From: Ignavibacteria bacterium
GTDB taxonomy: Bacteria > Bacteroidota > Ignavibacteria > Tepidaquicellales > OLB5
NCBI GenBank assembly: GCA_017303675.1
Contig: JAFLBX010000002.1
Location: forward strand, 757,091 to 821,090
Direction: 5' to 3'
Length of the DNA stretch: 64,000 nucleotides
A program made the translations under genes and the position numbers. The notes under the pieces were generated by a model, which was not told the DNA's origin, did no database searches, and worked only from the letters and a program-made list of their open reading frames with translations. Shown one piece after another: positions 10,435-42,606 of the stretch (position 1 is its first letter; every line of letters starts with the position of its first letter).

Positions 10435-11322
10435 TTAAATTTTTCCTGAAGGTTTATTAATACTTATTATTATTTCCTGAAACTCTGACGGTGCTGCTGA
10501 TCTTTCCCAGTAATTTTCAAACAGGTCGTACATATTTTCCGCATATTGCCTGTCATTTATTACCAGGTCAGTTTGTTTGTTTTTTTGTGAACCAGGGTCT
10601 CCGGCTAAATTTACAAATACTTTTTCCCTGTCAATAATTACCATATTGGGAATCTCTATTGATGTCAGCTTTACCTGCTCGCCATAACTTTCGAATACAC
10701 GGCAAATGTTAAGAAGGTCATCATTTGAAGCGTTTACGGTTTTATCACCCTTTTTAACACGAAAATCCAGGCTTATTTTATAAAGTGACCTGATCGATCC
10801 GCCCCCTTTAATAAAATTCAAACTGAAATCATTGATATCATCTGTTACAATACCTTTTAGCCTGTTCATAGAGAGAATTTCTTTTTTAGCACTTTTTATC
10901 AGACCCATATATTTTAATACACGGTGCTTATTGAAGCCCCTTATTAGCTCAACATTATCTGTTTTATCATCGCTTTCCGCAGGATTCTGTTTATAAAAAG
11001 ATTCAAGCTCTCCAAACGTATCTTTAAGTACTGAAATCTTGTTTTTCAGGTTTTCATTATAATCCTTCTCAAGTTTGCCTATGATCACTTCGGGATTAAT
11101 TATTTGGTATTTAAGAGTTGTGTTGGTTTCTATTATATTGCAATAGCCTTTTTCAGCAAAATGTTTTAAAGTATCATAAATGGAATTTCTGAGCAGCTTG
11201 GCTTCATCGGCAATTTCGGGAACGCTCATTGGAATCCCCTTCATCAGAACAATGAATACTTTGGCGTCAAATTCTTTAAACCCAATTGATTTAAACTTAT
11301 CAATTATAATTTTTTTATCCAT
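10435..11322 (-). CDS. TrmB-family transcriptional regulator, cassette 1
   Basis: 295 residues. An N-terminal winged helix (about residues 10-75) has MSVPEIADEAKLLRNSIYDTLKHFAEKGYC, typical of TrmB. A short coiled region (85-115) leads to a C-terminal effector-like domain (120-280) containing LIRGFNKHRVLKYM, VFVNLAGDPG and YAENMYDLFENYW. TrmB proteins usually sense small ligands; the ligand here is unknown. It is about half identical by eye to the protein at 37613-38443. A perfect palindrome lies 7 bp before the ATG, directly next to the -7 box, implying autorepression. The downstream gene is the propeller surface protein. Confidence 0.87.
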   Translation of the reverse strand: MDKKIIIDKFKSIGFKEFDAKVFIVLMKGIPMSVPEIADEAKLLRNSIYDTLKHFAEKGYCNIIETNTTLKYQIINPEVIIGKLEKDYNENLKNKISVLKDTFGELESFYKQNPAESDDKTDNVELIRGFNKHRVLKYMGLIKSAKKEILSMNRLKGIVTDDINDFSLNFIKGGGSIRSLYKISLDFRVKKGDKTVNASNDDLLNICRVFESYGEQVKLTSIEIPNMVIIDREKVFVNLAGDPGSQKNKQTDLVINDRQYAENMYDLFENYWERSAAPSEFQEIIISINKPSGKI

Positions 11323-37612: not shown

Positions 37613-38443
37613 TTAAGTTTTATTTTTTTTAAATTCATCAATAGTTAATGCTTTCTCCCAGTAATTATTAAAAAGATCTTTCATGTGCGAAGCATAATCA
37701 GGATTCTTAATAATAAGGTCTGCTTGTTTATGTTTAGGTACGTTCTTATCGACTGAAAGATTTATAAAAACATTTTCTGAATCAAATACTGTAATGTTTG
37801 GTAATTTATAAGGTGCCAGCCTTACTTTCTCTCCCCCTTTTTCAAAAAGCTCGCAAGCAGCAACAAGTTCAGCATTTAATGCTTTATCTTCACTAAGCTG
37901 GTATAATGACCTGATCACACCGCCTTCTTTTATGAATACCTGGGCATCACGGCTAAGCTCTTCAACAACAACCCTGCGGGGACTGTACATTCCCAGGATT
38001 TCCTTTTTGGAAGTGTTAACAAGCTCCATATAACGCTGCACACGGTGTTTATTAAATCCGCGTATAAGCTGAATATTCTTATCTGGCCCTTCAGTTTTTT
38101 CAGATTCCGATTTGTATATCTGTTGAAGCTCACCAAAGGTTTCATTCAGGCTTTCGAGCTTCCTGTTGAAGTTCTTTTTATAATCGCTGGTAATTTTATC
38201 TAAAATGATCGCAGGGTCTATTATCTGGTAGTTTAAAATAGTATTGGTTTCAATTTCGTTGCAATATCCTTTTTCTACAAATGATTTAAGAATATCATAA
38301 ATTGAATTACGGATAATTTTAGCTTCCTTAGCAATTTCAGAAGCGCTCATAGGAGAGCCCCCCAATAATACTATCAGCACTTTGGATTCATATTCTTTGA
38401 ATCCTAAAGTTTTGAGGCGTTCTATTAAAATTTCCTTATTCAA
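37613..38443 (-). CDS. TrmB-family transcriptional regulator, cassette 2
   Basis: 276 residues from a TTG start at 38443. Same architecture as the regulator at 10435-11322: winged helix with SASEIAKEAKIIRNSIYDILKSFVEKGYC, linker helix, and a C-terminal domain containing LIRGFNKHRVQRYMELV, VFINLSVDK and YASHMKDLFNNYWEKA. The operator palindrome overlaps the start codon, so autorepression would block both transcription and early translation. It is followed after 293 bp by the propeller gene, unlike cassette 1 where the two genes are 2 nt apart. Confidence 0.87.
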   Translation of the reverse strand: MNKEILIERLKTLGFKEYESKVLIVLLGGSPMSASEIAKEAKIIRNSIYDILKSFVEKGYCNEIETNTILNYQIIDPAIILDKITSDYKKNFNRKLESLNETFGELQQIYKSESEKTEGPDKNIQLIRGFNKHRVQRYMELVNTSKKEILGMYSPRRVVVEELSRDAQVFIKEGGVIRSLYQLSEDKALNAELVAACELFEKGGEKVRLAPYKLPNITVFDSENVFINLSVDKNVPKHKQADLIIKNPDYASHMKDLFNNYWEKALTIDEFKKNKT

Positions 38444-38485
38444 TATTGCTGTAGTTTTAAACTACTGCAATATAGCAAAGTATAA
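38441..38485 (-). promoter_or_regulatory. Promoter and palindromic operator of TrmB-type regulator 2
   Basis: Perfect core GTAGTTT T AAACTAC (38451-38465) inside longer arms (38441-38457 and 38459-38475, 15 of 17 pairs). TATACTTTG at 38485-38477 on the minus strand resembles a -7 box with one extra base. The palindrome covers the TTG start at 38443 and shares the TTTTAAA centre with the regulator 1 operator. Confidence 0.6.
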
Positions 38486-38554
38486 TTGAATTGTCAATAT
38501 ACCTAATATAGCTATTTTAGTCACTGCTTAAACTAATGATTTACAATAAATAAA

Positions 38555-38582
38555 AAGCGATCAAACAGTATATTTGATCGCT
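38555..38582 (-). terminator. Terminator of an orphan minus-strand transcript
   Basis: Stem AGCGATCAAA / TTTGATCGCT (arms 38573-38582 and 38555-38564), followed on the minus strand by TTTTTATTTATTG. No annotated gene ends here, so it points to a transcript from the structured region just upstream. Confidence 0.7.
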
Positions 38583-38962
38583 GAATTAACAAACTGAAAT
38601 GAAAAACAGAAAAGAAGGAAATGAAAATAAAATAGCTAGGTTTTAAAAGAGGGCGTTAAAAACTTAGCGCAGCTTCCTGAACTGCAGTGATCATAATTGT
38701 TTCTCCCGCCCTTCGAAAGAGGACAATTTATCAAGACAGAGGCTGCTGCGCTTATTATCATTAACAATTTTTTATTAAAATAAATCTCAATTTTATTCTA
38801 AACCGGGGTCATGGAAGCTCACTTTTAATTACCTCCGTTGACGCCTTTGGAGCTTACTCTGACCCCGGTCAACAACATTAGTAAGAGATGATTGAAATTT
38901 TCTTAAACTGTTTAAACTTTCTGTTGTAAAAATAATATATTTAGTATGATTTGCCAAAGATA
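38583..38962 (-). other. Unexplained structured element with own promoter-like box (candidate ncRNA or REP/MITE-type repeats)
   Basis: In this gap a minus-strand -7 box TATCTTTG (38962-38955) is followed by two long hairpins and the terminator at 38555-38582. Hairpin A (38802-38869) has the 10-bp stem ACCGGGGTCA / TGACCCCGGT and an inner AAGCTC / GAGCTT stem; its GGGGTCAGAGT end resembles REP hairpins linked to RAYT transposases. Hairpin B (38666-38752) has AGCGCAGC / GCTGCGCT and inner AATTGT / ACAATT. A 41-codon frame (38761-38636) overlaps hairpin B. GC content is higher than in other gaps. The rest of the gap up to the terminator at 39149 is AT-rich and empty. Confidence 0.45.
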
Positions 38963-38981
38963 TTTAAATACGTTTGTTAAA
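38955..38981. repeat. AT-rich palindromic motif, copy 1
   Basis: CAAAGATA-TTTAAATA-CGTTTG-TTAAA. A near-identical copy is at 41021-41047 in the same orientation (about 24 of 27 bases). It contains overlapping divergent TAnnTTTG boxes (TACGTTTG on plus, TATCTTTG on minus). The copies flank the T9SS gene at 39197-40936. Confidence 0.5.
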
Positions 38982-39148
38982 AGCTAAAATCAACAAAAAA
39001 GTCCCGGTAAATTACTTTATATTGTATTTTTATTGAAATTTTACACATTTTAAAATGACACAAATCTAGTTTTGTTAAAAGTAGATAATTACTTATTTTT
39101 CAATTAATTACTAACAGATAGGTAGTGAAAAATACATTATAAAGAAAA

Positions 39149-39173
39149 ACCCCGTTATTTTTAATAACGGGGT
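39149..39173 (-). terminator. Terminator of the 579-aa T9SS gene
   Basis: Stem ACCCCGTTATT / AATAACGGGGT (39149-39159, 39163-39173) with a 3-nt loop, followed by a T run on the minus strand. Confidence 0.87.
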
Positions 39174-39196
39174 AAATTAAAAATTTGAGTGATTAA

Positions 39197-40936
39197 TTAT
39201 TTCACTAATACCATTTTTTTAGTTTCACTGAAGTTTTCGGCAGTCAAACTGTAAAAATAAATTCCGCTCGGATAATCAGCCGCATTGAAATCAGTGCTGT
39301 AAATACCCGCCTGTATATTTTCGTTAACCAGTACTTTTATTTCTCTTCCAAGAGCGTCATAAATAACAAGTTTTACAAAACCACTTTTAGGAATGGAAAA
39401 CTTGATAGTTGTATTTGGATTAAATGGATTCGGATAGTTCTGTTCTAATGAATACTTTGCAGGTATCATATTACTAGCAGGCTCAATACCAATCAGGTTA
39501 AAACAATTATAATAATAGTTTTTAATATTATCAGTAGCATTTAGCAAAGCACACACGCTTTGGTTATTATTGCTTCCTCTTGCAATTGTATAGGAGTATA
39601 CAACTACTTGTGTATCTCCTGAATTCATCGTGAACGGTCCGGAATTCATCAAATTCCTGACATCATTACCAGTACTGTCATACCAGCCGGTTTTTGTACA
39701 TGCATCTCCGGAATATACATATGTAGTTGGCTGACCGGTAGTATAATTAATCAAAGTATTACTGCAACCATCTTTCCCGCGCAGCATTTCGTATGCAACT
39801 GATGCACTATCAGGGTCTCCGTAACAAACTGTTCCGCTGTTAAAAAAACCAAAATGACCGGACATTAATTTCATTTTATATCCAACAAGTGTGTTACAAG
39901 GCAGCTTTGCAGTATCACTGTTATTACCTGTAAATACAACCGGACCCTGAAGCATCCTGTATCCAACAGCCGGAGGAGCTGCTCCGTAAACAGGGTCGTT
40001 ATTATCAAAATTATAAGTAAAAGCAATATTTCTTGAAGTATCACACCCTGTTGCATCATCATTAGCTTCACCCAGATCAGCATCATTAACTAAACCTATA
40101 TAAGTGCTATCCCATACTTTTCCGCTTTTATTAATTATCTTATACCTGATAAAATATGTATCTCTGAATCCTTCAGAATCAAAGGCATATGCTAGCTGCT
40201 GAACTTCTACTCCGAGCGGCAGAGTTCCTCCGGGGAGGCTTAACTCTCTGGCATGAGGATTGTTAGTACAATTGGTATAATCCATAAAAACAGAAAACAT
40301 CATTTCTGAGGGTCTGGAGTTTCCAATTCCGGTACCTGGTCTGTCAGAATTCCAACCAGGCTGATAACCTGCTATACCGTTGACTTCGACATATGGAGCA
40401 CCCTGTCCAACCGGCCAGGAAGCCCATGATGAATAAACAAAAGTATAGGTTCTGCCTCCGGCATTTTTAGTGATAGTACCGCCGTTTACAAGGGATTGAT
40501 CATTAAGGCTGACAAGGTAACCGCTGAATGCAGGGTCACTGCATACAGAAGATGGAGGAACCTGCCCAATAACAGGAATATTACCCGGAGAATAATGCGT
40601 ATTGTACATTGAAGCAGCTAATCTCAGCTCTTTTTGATTTGAGCCGATATTTACCTTTGCACCTATCCACAGGCCTGATGCAAATACCGTTGTCATTCTT
40701 TGTGCTGCTGCAACCGGCCAGATAAACCCGGCATCTCCGCTCACAAAAGTAATTTTATCATAGTTAAAATATCCGTCTGTTCTGAATACGGTATTTATAT
40801 TACCGCTCTGAAGGAAAATACTTTGAGCAGGAGCAAATGATGATTCAATGTTAAGCAATGAGCCTTCACGTTCTTTTGAAAAAGAACCTGACGCTAGAAA
40901 TAAAATAAGGACTGCAAAGAGGACTAAATTTTTCAT
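39197..40936 (-). CDS. T9SS-sorted secreted protein of unknown function
   Basis: 579 residues. Signal peptide KNLVLFAVLILFLASGSFS. About 450 residues follow with the phrases FASGLWIGAKVNIGSNQKELRLAASMY, FDSEGFRDTYFIRYKIINKSGKVWDSTYIGLVNDADLGEANDD and MNSGDTQVVVYSYTIARG. These recur in a large T9SS family of the lineage with no known function. The C terminus is a T9SS type A sorting domain (EQNYPNPFNPNTTIKFSIP). Several Cys residues could form disulfides outside the cell. ATG start. Flanked by the AT-rich palindromic motif copies at 38955 and 41021. Confidence 0.87.
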   Translation of the reverse strand: MKNLVLFAVLILFLASGSFSKEREGSLLNIESSFAPAQSIFLQSGNINTVFRTDGYFNYDKITFVSGDAGFIWPVAAAQRMTTVFASGLWIGAKVNIGSNQKELRLAASMYNTHYSPGNIPVIGQVPPSSVCSDPAFSGYLVSLNDQSLVNGGTITKNAGGRTYTFVYSSWASWPVGQGAPYVEVNGIAGYQPGWNSDRPGTGIGNSRPSEMMFSVFMDYTNCTNNPHARELSLPGGTLPLGVEVQQLAYAFDSEGFRDTYFIRYKIINKSGKVWDSTYIGLVNDADLGEANDDATGCDTSRNIAFTYNFDNNDPVYGAAPPAVGYRMLQGPVVFTGNNSDTAKLPCNTLVGYKMKLMSGHFGFFNSGTVCYGDPDSASVAYEMLRGKDGCSNTLINYTTGQPTTYVYSGDACTKTGWYDSTGNDVRNLMNSGPFTMNSGDTQVVVYSYTIARGSNNNQSVCALLNATDNIKNYYYNCFNLIGIEPASNMIPAKYSLEQNYPNPFNPNTTIKFSIPKSGFVKLVIYDALGREIKVLVNENIQAGIYSTDFNAADYPSGIYFYSLTAENFSETKKMVLVK

Positions 40937-41020
40937 ATTAAATTCAGGTTAGTTATGAAATAATTTTTAAGCAATTATGGTTTTTGCTAATATAAAAATA
41001 GCACATTCCATAGGTATAGG

Positions 41021-41047
41021 CAAAGATTTTTAAATAGATTTGTTAAA
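41021..41047. repeat. AT-rich palindromic motif, copy 2
   Basis: CAAAGATT-TTTAAATA-GATTTG-TTAAA, the second copy of the motif at 38955. Includes a plus-strand TAGATTTG. It lies in the gap between the T9SS gene start and the next plus-strand gene. Confidence 0.5.
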
Positions 41048-41172: not shown

Positions 41173-42606
41173 ATGCGGGAATCAAAGCTTACTGAGATGG
41201 TTAAGGGCATCAGCCCGGCAGAATTCAGAAAATTCGGTGAATTCCTGAACTCACCCTACCATAACAAAAGCAGAAAAATTATTCAGCTTTACGAACTGAT
41301 CAACTTTAATTATGATGAATTCGATGCAAATGTCATTACCAATGAAAAAATTGCCAAGGCAATTTTCAGCGGTGAAGGCGATAAAGATCAGAACGTAAGG
41401 ACCCTCATCAGCAGTTTTACTGCCCTGCTTGAAGAATTCCTGGTGATAGAAGAGCTGAACAACAATTCATTACATGGTAAAACATTCCTGCTTAAATCTT
41501 TGCGTGATAGAAACATACTTAAGACCTTTGATATGGTATCAAAGGAAATAACTGACATCCAGCAAAAAGATTTTAACAGGAATACCGATTATTATTACAA
41601 TGAATTCACTTTCAAAGAAACATGGCTTAACTATCACGGTGAAGATCTTGATCTTGACCTGGATAAAAGCTACCAGGAAATGAGCGATAATGCTGACCAC
41701 CTTTTCATAGTAACAAAACTTAAGGTACTGAACACAGTTATAAGCAGAAAGATACTTTCAGGCATCAGCATTTATAAAACATATTGGGCTGTTGAAAATA
41801 TCCTTAAATATATCGAGAAAAATATCGATGATATCGAGCAGCATCATCCGATAATTTATTCTGAATATAAAATCTTGATGATGGTGCTTGAGCCTGATAA
41901 GGTAAAACATTTTCATGATCTTGAAAAACACGTTTTCCATAATATTTCACGATATAACGAAGAAGAGCTTGAGCAGGTATATTATTCGCTTTCAAATTAC
42001 TGTGTAAATAAAATTGCCCTTGGTGAAGATAAGTTTGTTAACGAGCTGTATAAGATACATTCCAACTTCGAAAAGACAGGTTTCTATGAAAAGAATAAAA
42101 ACCTTCAGTACACAGATTTTATAGGAGTGATAATTTGCGGGCTAAATATGAAACAAATGAAGTGGGTCGAACACTTCTTTGATACATACAAAGGCAATAT
42201 AGCAAGCGAAGTTAAGCGTGATACTATAAATCTTTCTTCAGCACTTATTGCCTTCCAGAATAAAAAATATAAGGATTGTGTCGGATTTTTGAGCAAGGTT
42301 GGATATAAATACACGTACTTTTACCTTAAATCAAAGGAAACGCTAATTAAAGCATATTACGAACTGGGAGAAATAGAATCACTTGAAGCTGTAGTAGATG
42401 CTGCAAAACATTACCTGAAGCGTCATAAGGAAATGTTATCGATCCATTTTGACAGGTATATCCTGTTCCTGAATTACGTAATAAACCTGCTGAAGCTGGA
42501 TAAGAAACAAAAACCCGAGCTTAAAATGCTGATGAAAAAGCTTGATGAGAACAGGACAACAATTGCCCGTGAATGGCTTATTGAAAAAATTATTGAAATG
42601 AAATAG
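41173..42606 (+). CDS. Large helical protein of unknown function
   Basis: 477 residues, cytoplasmic, almost entirely alpha-helical by composition, with helix pairs such as FRKFGEFLNSPYHNKSRKIIQLYELI, DQNVRTLISSFTALLEEFLVI, RYNEEELEQVYYSLSNYCVNK and IKAYYELGEIESLEAVVDAAKHYLKRHKEM. This is compatible with a TPR- or HEAT-like solenoid, but no repeat is clean enough to name. I do not recognise a family. It is a stand-alone gene, convergent with fmt (3 bp between stops). ATG start. Confidence 0.72.
   Translation: MRESKLTEMVKGISPAEFRKFGEFLNSPYHNKSRKIIQLYELINFNYDEFDANVITNEKIAKAIFSGEGDKDQNVRTLISSFTALLEEFLVIEELNNNSLHGKTFLLKSLRDRNILKTFDMVSKEITDIQQKDFNRNTDYYYNEFTFKETWLNYHGEDLDLDLDKSYQEMSDNADHLFIVTKLKVLNTVISRKILSGISIYKTYWAVENILKYIEKNIDDIEQHHPIIYSEYKILMMVLEPDKVKHFHDLEKHVFHNISRYNEEELEQVYYSLSNYCVNKIALGEDKFVNELYKIHSNFEKTGFYEKNKNLQYTDFIGVIICGLNMKQMKWVEHFFDTYKGNIASEVKRDTINLSSALIAFQNKKYKDCVGFLSKVGYKYTYFYLKSKETLIKAYYELGEIESLEAVVDAAKHYLKRHKEMLSIHFDRYILFLNYVINLLKLDKKQKPELKMLMKKLDENRTTIAREWLIEKIIEMK

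Follow-up and report, generated by a model that had tools for sequence, protein, structure and literature searches.

Organisation of the locus

The window, as we call the whole stretch of 64,000 nucleotides that was analysed (C2:757091-821090), comes from an Ignavibacteria genome of 3.65 Mb in two contigs. In it a gene for a secreted protein and a gene for a TrmB-like regulator flank a gap on whose minus strand lie, in this order, a promoter motif, a hairpin that we call B, a second hairpin called A and a terminator-like hairpin. The features are as follows, in minus-strand order:

40993-41047, minus: second copy of the 55-nt composite promoter motif, preceding the secreted-protein gene
39197-40936, minus: gene for a secreted protein with a Por secretion tail, upstream flank of the unit
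39149-39173, minus: terminator-like hairpin of the secreted-protein gene, parting that gene from the unit
38927-38981, minus: putative composite promoter P1, with TTTAACAAA at 38981-38973, TTTG (-33) at 38958-38955 and TATTTTTA (-7) at 38934-38927
38801-38870, minus: hairpin B (z -4.0; model R3)
38666-38752, minus: hairpin A, a four-helix rod forming the conserved core (from the fold and 12 of 15 family genomes)
38630-38657, minus: conserved 3' tail AACGCCCTCTTTTAAAACCTAGCTATTT, mostly unpaired in predictions
38547-38582, minus: predicted intrinsic terminator, a stem of 12 pairs at 38582-38556 with a T tail
38497-38469, minus: promoter of the TrmB-like gene, TTGACA-17-TATATT, downstream of the unit
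38470-38445, minus: palindrome of 26 nt overlapping that promoter, the element spanning 38445-38497
37613-38443, minus: gene for the TrmB-domain regulator, downstream flank of the unit

The initial annotation had described an orphan minus-strand unit with a promoter box, two GC-rich hairpins in AT-rich DNA, a T-tailed terminator and no recognised gene, and all of this holds except the role given to the box. The GC content reaches 0.47 in hairpin A and 0.49 in hairpin B, whereas the adjoining intergenic DNA lies at 0.20-0.28, and the only open reading frames of at least 40 codons within 38444-39196 have 42 and 43 codons. Folded as a whole, the 415 nt of the unit give a z-score of -4.9, equalled by none of 100 shuffles.

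The TrmB-like gene has a promoter of its own, which suggests that it is independent of the unit's transcript. The palindrome over this promoter is probably an operator and perhaps has a role in autoregulation; by eye, each of the 10 further loci that have the gene downstream shows the same arrangement. A cis-regulatory leader of the TrmB-like gene would always lie upstream of it and be transcribed with it, and the unit does not behave in this way, since a terminator-like hairpin and the gene's own promoter lie between, one genome (G014) has hairpin A with no such gene adjoining and another (G004) has the gene with no hairpin A. Named relatives sharing this regulator gene are MAGs of Ignavibacteria, one of which is filed as Chlorobiota. 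At E <= 1e-20 the regulator finds four matches in its own genome, itself counted; a second TrmB-like gene in the window (10435-11322, minus) is a paralogue with 50% identity.

Beyond the secreted-protein gene, a plus-strand gene (41173-42606) encodes a protein of 477 amino acids with no Pfam or NCBIfam match. It belongs to a greatly expanded gene family, with 42 matches at E <= 1e-10 in its own genome, 6-49 in the 15 genomes of the taxonomic family and 0-42 in the 17 order relatives searched. Close orthologues (at least 49% identity) occur in 13 of the 15 family genomes, G001 included; none was found in G004 or G007, both also without hairpin A, and this joint absence fits the shared loss of one segment and is no evidence of a functional link. 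When the flanks of 10 of the 42 paralogues were compared with that in the window, a single match appeared (111 nt, 71% identical), located at the 3' end of the secreted-protein gene and outside the RNA unit, besides an overlap between two of the flanking stretches themselves.

Structure and distribution of hairpin A

On comparative grounds, hairpin A is a real structured RNA. It folds at -36 kcal/mol (z -3.4, none of 200 shuffles as good), and in six relatives folded singly the z-scores range from -2.65 (L007, where 2 of 200 shuffles did as well) to -5.97. A BLAST search with the unit in 59 genomes, the own one included, found long matches of 78-83% in five genomes of the same genus. A further six genomes, two of which belong to other genera of the family, had shorter matches around the hairpin; all 12 loci were taken into the alignment of hairpin A and none was dropped. 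Over the thirty pairs counted on this alignment (A2), 96.7% of the cells are paired, compared with 34-58% in slid versions, and part of the unpaired remainder comes from L012, in which the closing stem has been replaced and still pairs when folded alone. A compensatory double change is seen in 10 of the 30 pairs (15 cells), and none of 500 shuffles matched four of the five covariation measures, the fifth (further pair types) being matched by 46. The base changes retain the G-U pairs of one strand. In the window, model R1 of the hairpin gives the minus strand 119.4 bits and the plus strand 19.9, so that the minus strand is the likelier RNA.

Much of the rod does not vary. The alignment and its pair table give 34 unchanging positions, 26 of them in paired columns; 5 of the 8 pairs in helix 2 and 4 of the 7 in helix 4 never vary. 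The apical segment GAAGGGCGGGAGA (38714-38702) is the same in 11 of the 12 loci, and its single-stranded loop of five nucleotides, AAGGG, is invariant in all 12. Two further motifs were looked for by eye and rejected: a pseudoknot of the apical AAGGG with GCCCU of the tail suits most loci but fails in L008, L009 and L012, and a kink-turn in the unit would lack G-A pairs.

Compared with the hairpin of the own genome, those of the 11 relatives are 78-99% identical over 58-97 nt: the four nearest reach 97-99% and the remaining seven 78-90%, with three of the seven aligned over no more than 58-77 of 96 nt. The surrounding DNA stands lower, at some 65-76% in the 10 relatives with a longer alignment, which in the closest ones includes the unit. 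Model R1 matched 12 of 391 genomes of the class, all within the family and making up 12 of its 15 genomes, and with laxer filters in 37 closer genomes it matched the same 12 besides weak rows; the alignment was built from BLAST hits, so these matches are partly circular. The class search used strict filters and scored 10 candidates per listed genome, the laxer filters were used for 22 order relatives, and more divergent relatives could be missed. Run unfiltered on 14 further loci, order relatives included, R1 gave nothing above 16 bits, and weak matches of 17.8-22 bits (in G033, G034 and G016 and as second matches in the own genome and G008) were treated as chance.

Hairpin A and the regulator gene are neighbours in 11 of the 12 genomes. 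Among 26 contigs with a relative of the regulator it was present in 9 of the 10 whose gene is at least 74% identical and in none of the other 16, most of these nine contigs being family genomes already counted, under public names. The exception is G014 (87% complete), where hairpin A has no regulator gene beside it and no regulator homologue passed 1e-20. Three family genomes are without the hairpin: G001 (75% complete), G007 (64%) and G004 (97%). In G001 the neighbouring gene is present and the contig ends inside the secreted-protein gene, which puts the hairpin A region out of view. In G004 the regulator gene is present and, by eye, directly preceded by a formyltransferase gene, of which the window also has a copy; the RNA segment is therefore truly missing there and, given the completeness of this genome, the RNA appears to be dispensable in some members of the family.

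Hairpin B is a separable module

Hairpin B folds at -29.9 kcal/mol with a z-score of -4.0, again better than all of 200 shuffles. Its model, R3, has one strong match in each of 8 of the 15 family genomes, the own genome included; weak matches of 16.8-21.5 bits were treated as chance. The apical GGCGTCAACGGAGGTAA (38845-38829) is invariant in six close genomes. Of 21 pairs no more than 3 carry double changes, and the term for covariation comes out slightly unfavourable; folded singly, L003 favours a different inner fold and L007 reaches a z-score of -2.0, with 8 of 200 shuffles as good, so that the support from the close genomes is moderate. Conserved structure with covariation is thus found for hairpin A, and the support for hairpin B is weaker.

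In two genomes, G006 and G009, the stem of hairpin B has been replaced yet pairs again (z -2.8 and -4.0; in G006, GACUGAGGC pairs with GCCUCAGUC) and the loop has been kept but for one base in G006. In both, hairpin B lies behind a P1-like promoter, beside the orthologue of the gene at 41173 and ahead of a secreted-protein gene. In G006 hairpins B and A are on separate contigs; in G009 they share one contig with the secreted-protein gene between them, and the two hairpins are therefore separable modules. They differ in distribution, a feature that goes beyond the initial reading, and hairpin B, with a loop displaying GGAGGUAA, would be the second and optional one. The secreted-protein gene itself lies upstream of both modules in the window and is absent from the gap in G003, G013 and G014.

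Genome-wide copy counts and covariance searches in related genomes had been proposed as checks on the two hairpins. The searches recovered A and B in the family genomes numbered above, and each hairpin has one strong copy in its own genome, the next rows standing at E 0.14 and 0.26 (109 of 1680 and 122 of 441 first-look candidates were scored for this count). Within that scope, neither hairpin behaves as a dispersed repeat.

Promoter and terminator motifs

The box TATCTTTG at 38962-38955 had been taken for a -7 element. A TAnnTTTA/G stands 20 nt downstream of its TTTG, a pattern (TTG-N20-TAnnTTTA/G) found upstream in 8 of the 12 hairpin A loci, and the box is thus probably the -33 element. Pairs of TTTG and TAnnTTTA/G spaced by 18-20 nt are expected about 0.06 times per 700 nt of local composition. 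The 55-position pattern of P1 occurs at exactly two places in the window with at most one mismatch, where none is expected, and its sharing by the RNA unit and the secreted-protein gene reflects either duplication or co-regulation. The motif resembles the primary promoter of Bacteroides, given in a passage of PMC7366714 as TTTG near -33 and TAnnTTTG at -7, a consensus that is that of Bacteroides and may not be that of Ignavibacteria. Transcription from P1 would start near 38920, and a start there makes the RNA some 370 nt long rather than 400. Four loci lack the motif: the contig of L010 extends only some 120 nt upstream of the hairpin, and a secreted-protein gene lies close upstream in L008, L009 and L011. 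A second promoter directly 5' of hairpin A (TTTTGTTATATGATwATAA) was dropped, its regular expression having matched only one of the 12 loci (L006).

The predicted terminator was correctly annotated as T-tailed, and a script found a terminator-like hairpin with a T tail in 11 of the 12 loci, L008 being the exception; the sequence of these hairpins differs in each locus and none was equalled in 40 shuffles. The promoter and terminator of a free-standing small RNA are therefore present as sequence motifs. No family of Rfam 15 reached its gathering score on the window, and permissive scans gave sub-threshold rows only, nine near the unit and four in 11 related loci. The proposal of a new non-coding RNA of about 400 nt has gained from conservation, covariation, promoter motif, terminator-like hairpins and the lack of an Rfam match, with its length put somewhat lower.

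Discussion

What the comparisons show is a structure, a strand, one strong copy, separable modules, a promoter motif and a terminator-like hairpin, and the intergenic stretch is very probably a new small-RNA gene. From the two motifs we infer that it is transcribed as one RNA: RNA polymerase would start at P1 and stop at the terminator (about 38550), and the product would carry hairpin B, hairpin A and the conserved, mostly unpaired 3' tail. Our preferred reading, held tentatively and at a little less than an even chance, is that this is an independent non-coding RNA gene of one Ignavibacteria family whose RNA of some 370 nt acts in trans, with hairpin A as a protein platform. Hairpin A would then be the working part and a site of recognition. 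Its partner would most likely be a protein, since the unchanging bases of the hairpin sit for the most part in paired segments, on both strands, and not in a single-stranded seed. The conservation of hairpin A above its surroundings is in agreement with this, as are the TrmB-like gene's own promoter and the genomes that have hairpin or gene without the other. Against it, hairpin A lies some 50-120 nt past the end of a secreted-protein gene in the three loci L008, L009 and L011 that lack P1, and may be a piece of a 3' untranslated region there. The tail, conserved only in the closer genomes, could moreover be an antisense seed, and the loop of hairpin A, being both single-stranded and invariant, is another possible seed; together they keep an antisense reading alive.

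Such an antisense small RNA, in which the hairpins only stabilise and mRNAs are recognised through pairing by the tail (GCCCUCUU..ACCUAGCUAUUU) or by purine-rich apical loops, is possible though unlikely. The ACCTAGCTATTT of the tail is identical in six genomes and nearly so in L010, well above its surroundings, and the heads of both hairpins expose G-rich segments, that of A with its unvarying AAGGG. The tail is only partly seen in L011, however, and is not seen in L008, L009, L012 and L013, where hairpin A is conserved, and the concentration of unchanging positions of A in paired columns does not suit a loop seed.

It is doubtful that the hairpins are cis elements of messages, with B as part of the 5' leader and A at the 3' end, and form a free unit only elsewhere. 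The messages meant would be those of the secreted-protein gene in G006 and G009 and, for A, also in G011. In G006 and G009 hairpin B does lie between a P1-like promoter and the start of that gene with A behind such a gene, and in the window the same 55-nt promoter precedes it. In the window, G003, G013 and G014, by contrast, the unit stands apart from any gene and ends in a terminator-like hairpin of its own; in the window another such hairpin cuts it off from the upstream gene.

Both hairpin heads show purines that resemble a Shine-Dalgarno sequence (GGCGUCAACGGAGGUAA in B and GAAGGGCGGGAGA in A). The RNA could be a decoy for the anti-Shine-Dalgarno end or for a GGA-binding protein, switched on with the secreted-protein gene through the shared 55-nt promoter, but we consider this improbable.

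A short protein gene hosted by hairpin B is very improbable. A frame reading MLLTGV..S.GVNGG[NK] is open in five of six close genomes (in L007 it has a GTG start and runs on), and a frame with NGGNYG passes through the hairpin in G006 and G009. This frame has an internal stop in L003, however; the variable columns fall on all codon positions (5/16, 3/17 and 7/16), the wobble bases of GGC GTC AAC GGA GGT are invariant across the six close genomes, and the replacement of the stem in G006 and G009 has kept the pairing.

That the hairpin A unit is a divergent 6S or other housekeeping RNA deserves still less credence. The idea draws on the shape of the hairpin, a rod of some 90 nt, and on the lack of any match to the Rfam models of 6S (RF00013) and 6S-Flavo (RF01685) in its genome, the latter negative saying little alone since RF01685 was silent in control genomes too. 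Of 119 class genomes the RF00013 model matched four, in two of which the score passed Rfam's cut-off, and model R2, built from these four candidates, found a 6S candidate at one place in the own genome, C2:209767-209931 (plus strand; locus L131), with the motif CACCCACTGTG and a T-tailed end; R2 matches 14 of the 15 family genomes and 30 of 37 relatives at E <= 1. Hairpin A is therefore not the 6S RNA of this genome, and the unit has no RF00013 row in the window or permissive scans. The SRP RNA likewise lies elsewhere (C2:417442-417539, 70 bits, the only RF00169 match in the genome), with no RF00169 row on the unit, and Rfam scans of the unit found no match to tmRNA or RNase P. As far as sequence can tell, the unit as main 6S or SRP RNA of the genome is refuted.

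The REP or MITE insertion that was offered as the other option, prompted by GC-rich imperfect palindromes in AT-rich surroundings, is barely credible and at the sensitivity of these searches is refuted by copy number, and the position of hairpin A beside one gene and the one-strand G-U pairs also tell against it.

As a candidate RNA family the unit is well supported and defined well enough for searching and testing, in a lineage that is little studied and for the most part uncultured; among titles and the opening lines of abstracts, the literature held nothing on non-coding RNAs of Ignavibacteria. It suggests that a hairpin-bearing, AT-rich gap in such a genome can be a single-copy RNA gene and not a repeat. 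The 6S candidate missed by Rfam's model in this order indicates that RNA annotation is incomplete here.

Comparison with known systems

RNAs of a comparable kind are the orphan motifs Chlorobi-1, Bacteroides-1 and Bacteroidales-1, whose Rfam numbers appear in a table of Weinberg et al. 2010 (PMC2864571). They too are computationally recognised, lineage-specific structured RNAs of Bacteroidetes/Chlorobi, but the Rfam rows on the unit or its relatives include none of them. Like 6S RNA and 6S-Flavo, the unit is intergenic and free-standing, with a rod-like hairpin RNA of a related group; by eye there is no likeness to 6S, as hairpin A folds without a large central bubble. With the small bacterial SRP RNA (Bacteria_small_SRP, RF00169) it shares a hairpin of about 100 nt with a conserved purine-rich side. 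RNAs of the CsrB/RsmZ type titrate a protein, and the apical GGA segments of the unit's hairpins (ACGGAGG in B and CGGGAG in A) recall them, although the unit has one conserved GGA site per hairpin rather than many. With REP and MITE elements it shares a GC-rich imperfect palindrome; unlike them, it is present as one strong copy, keeps the same locus across species and shows covariation of the kind seen in RNA.
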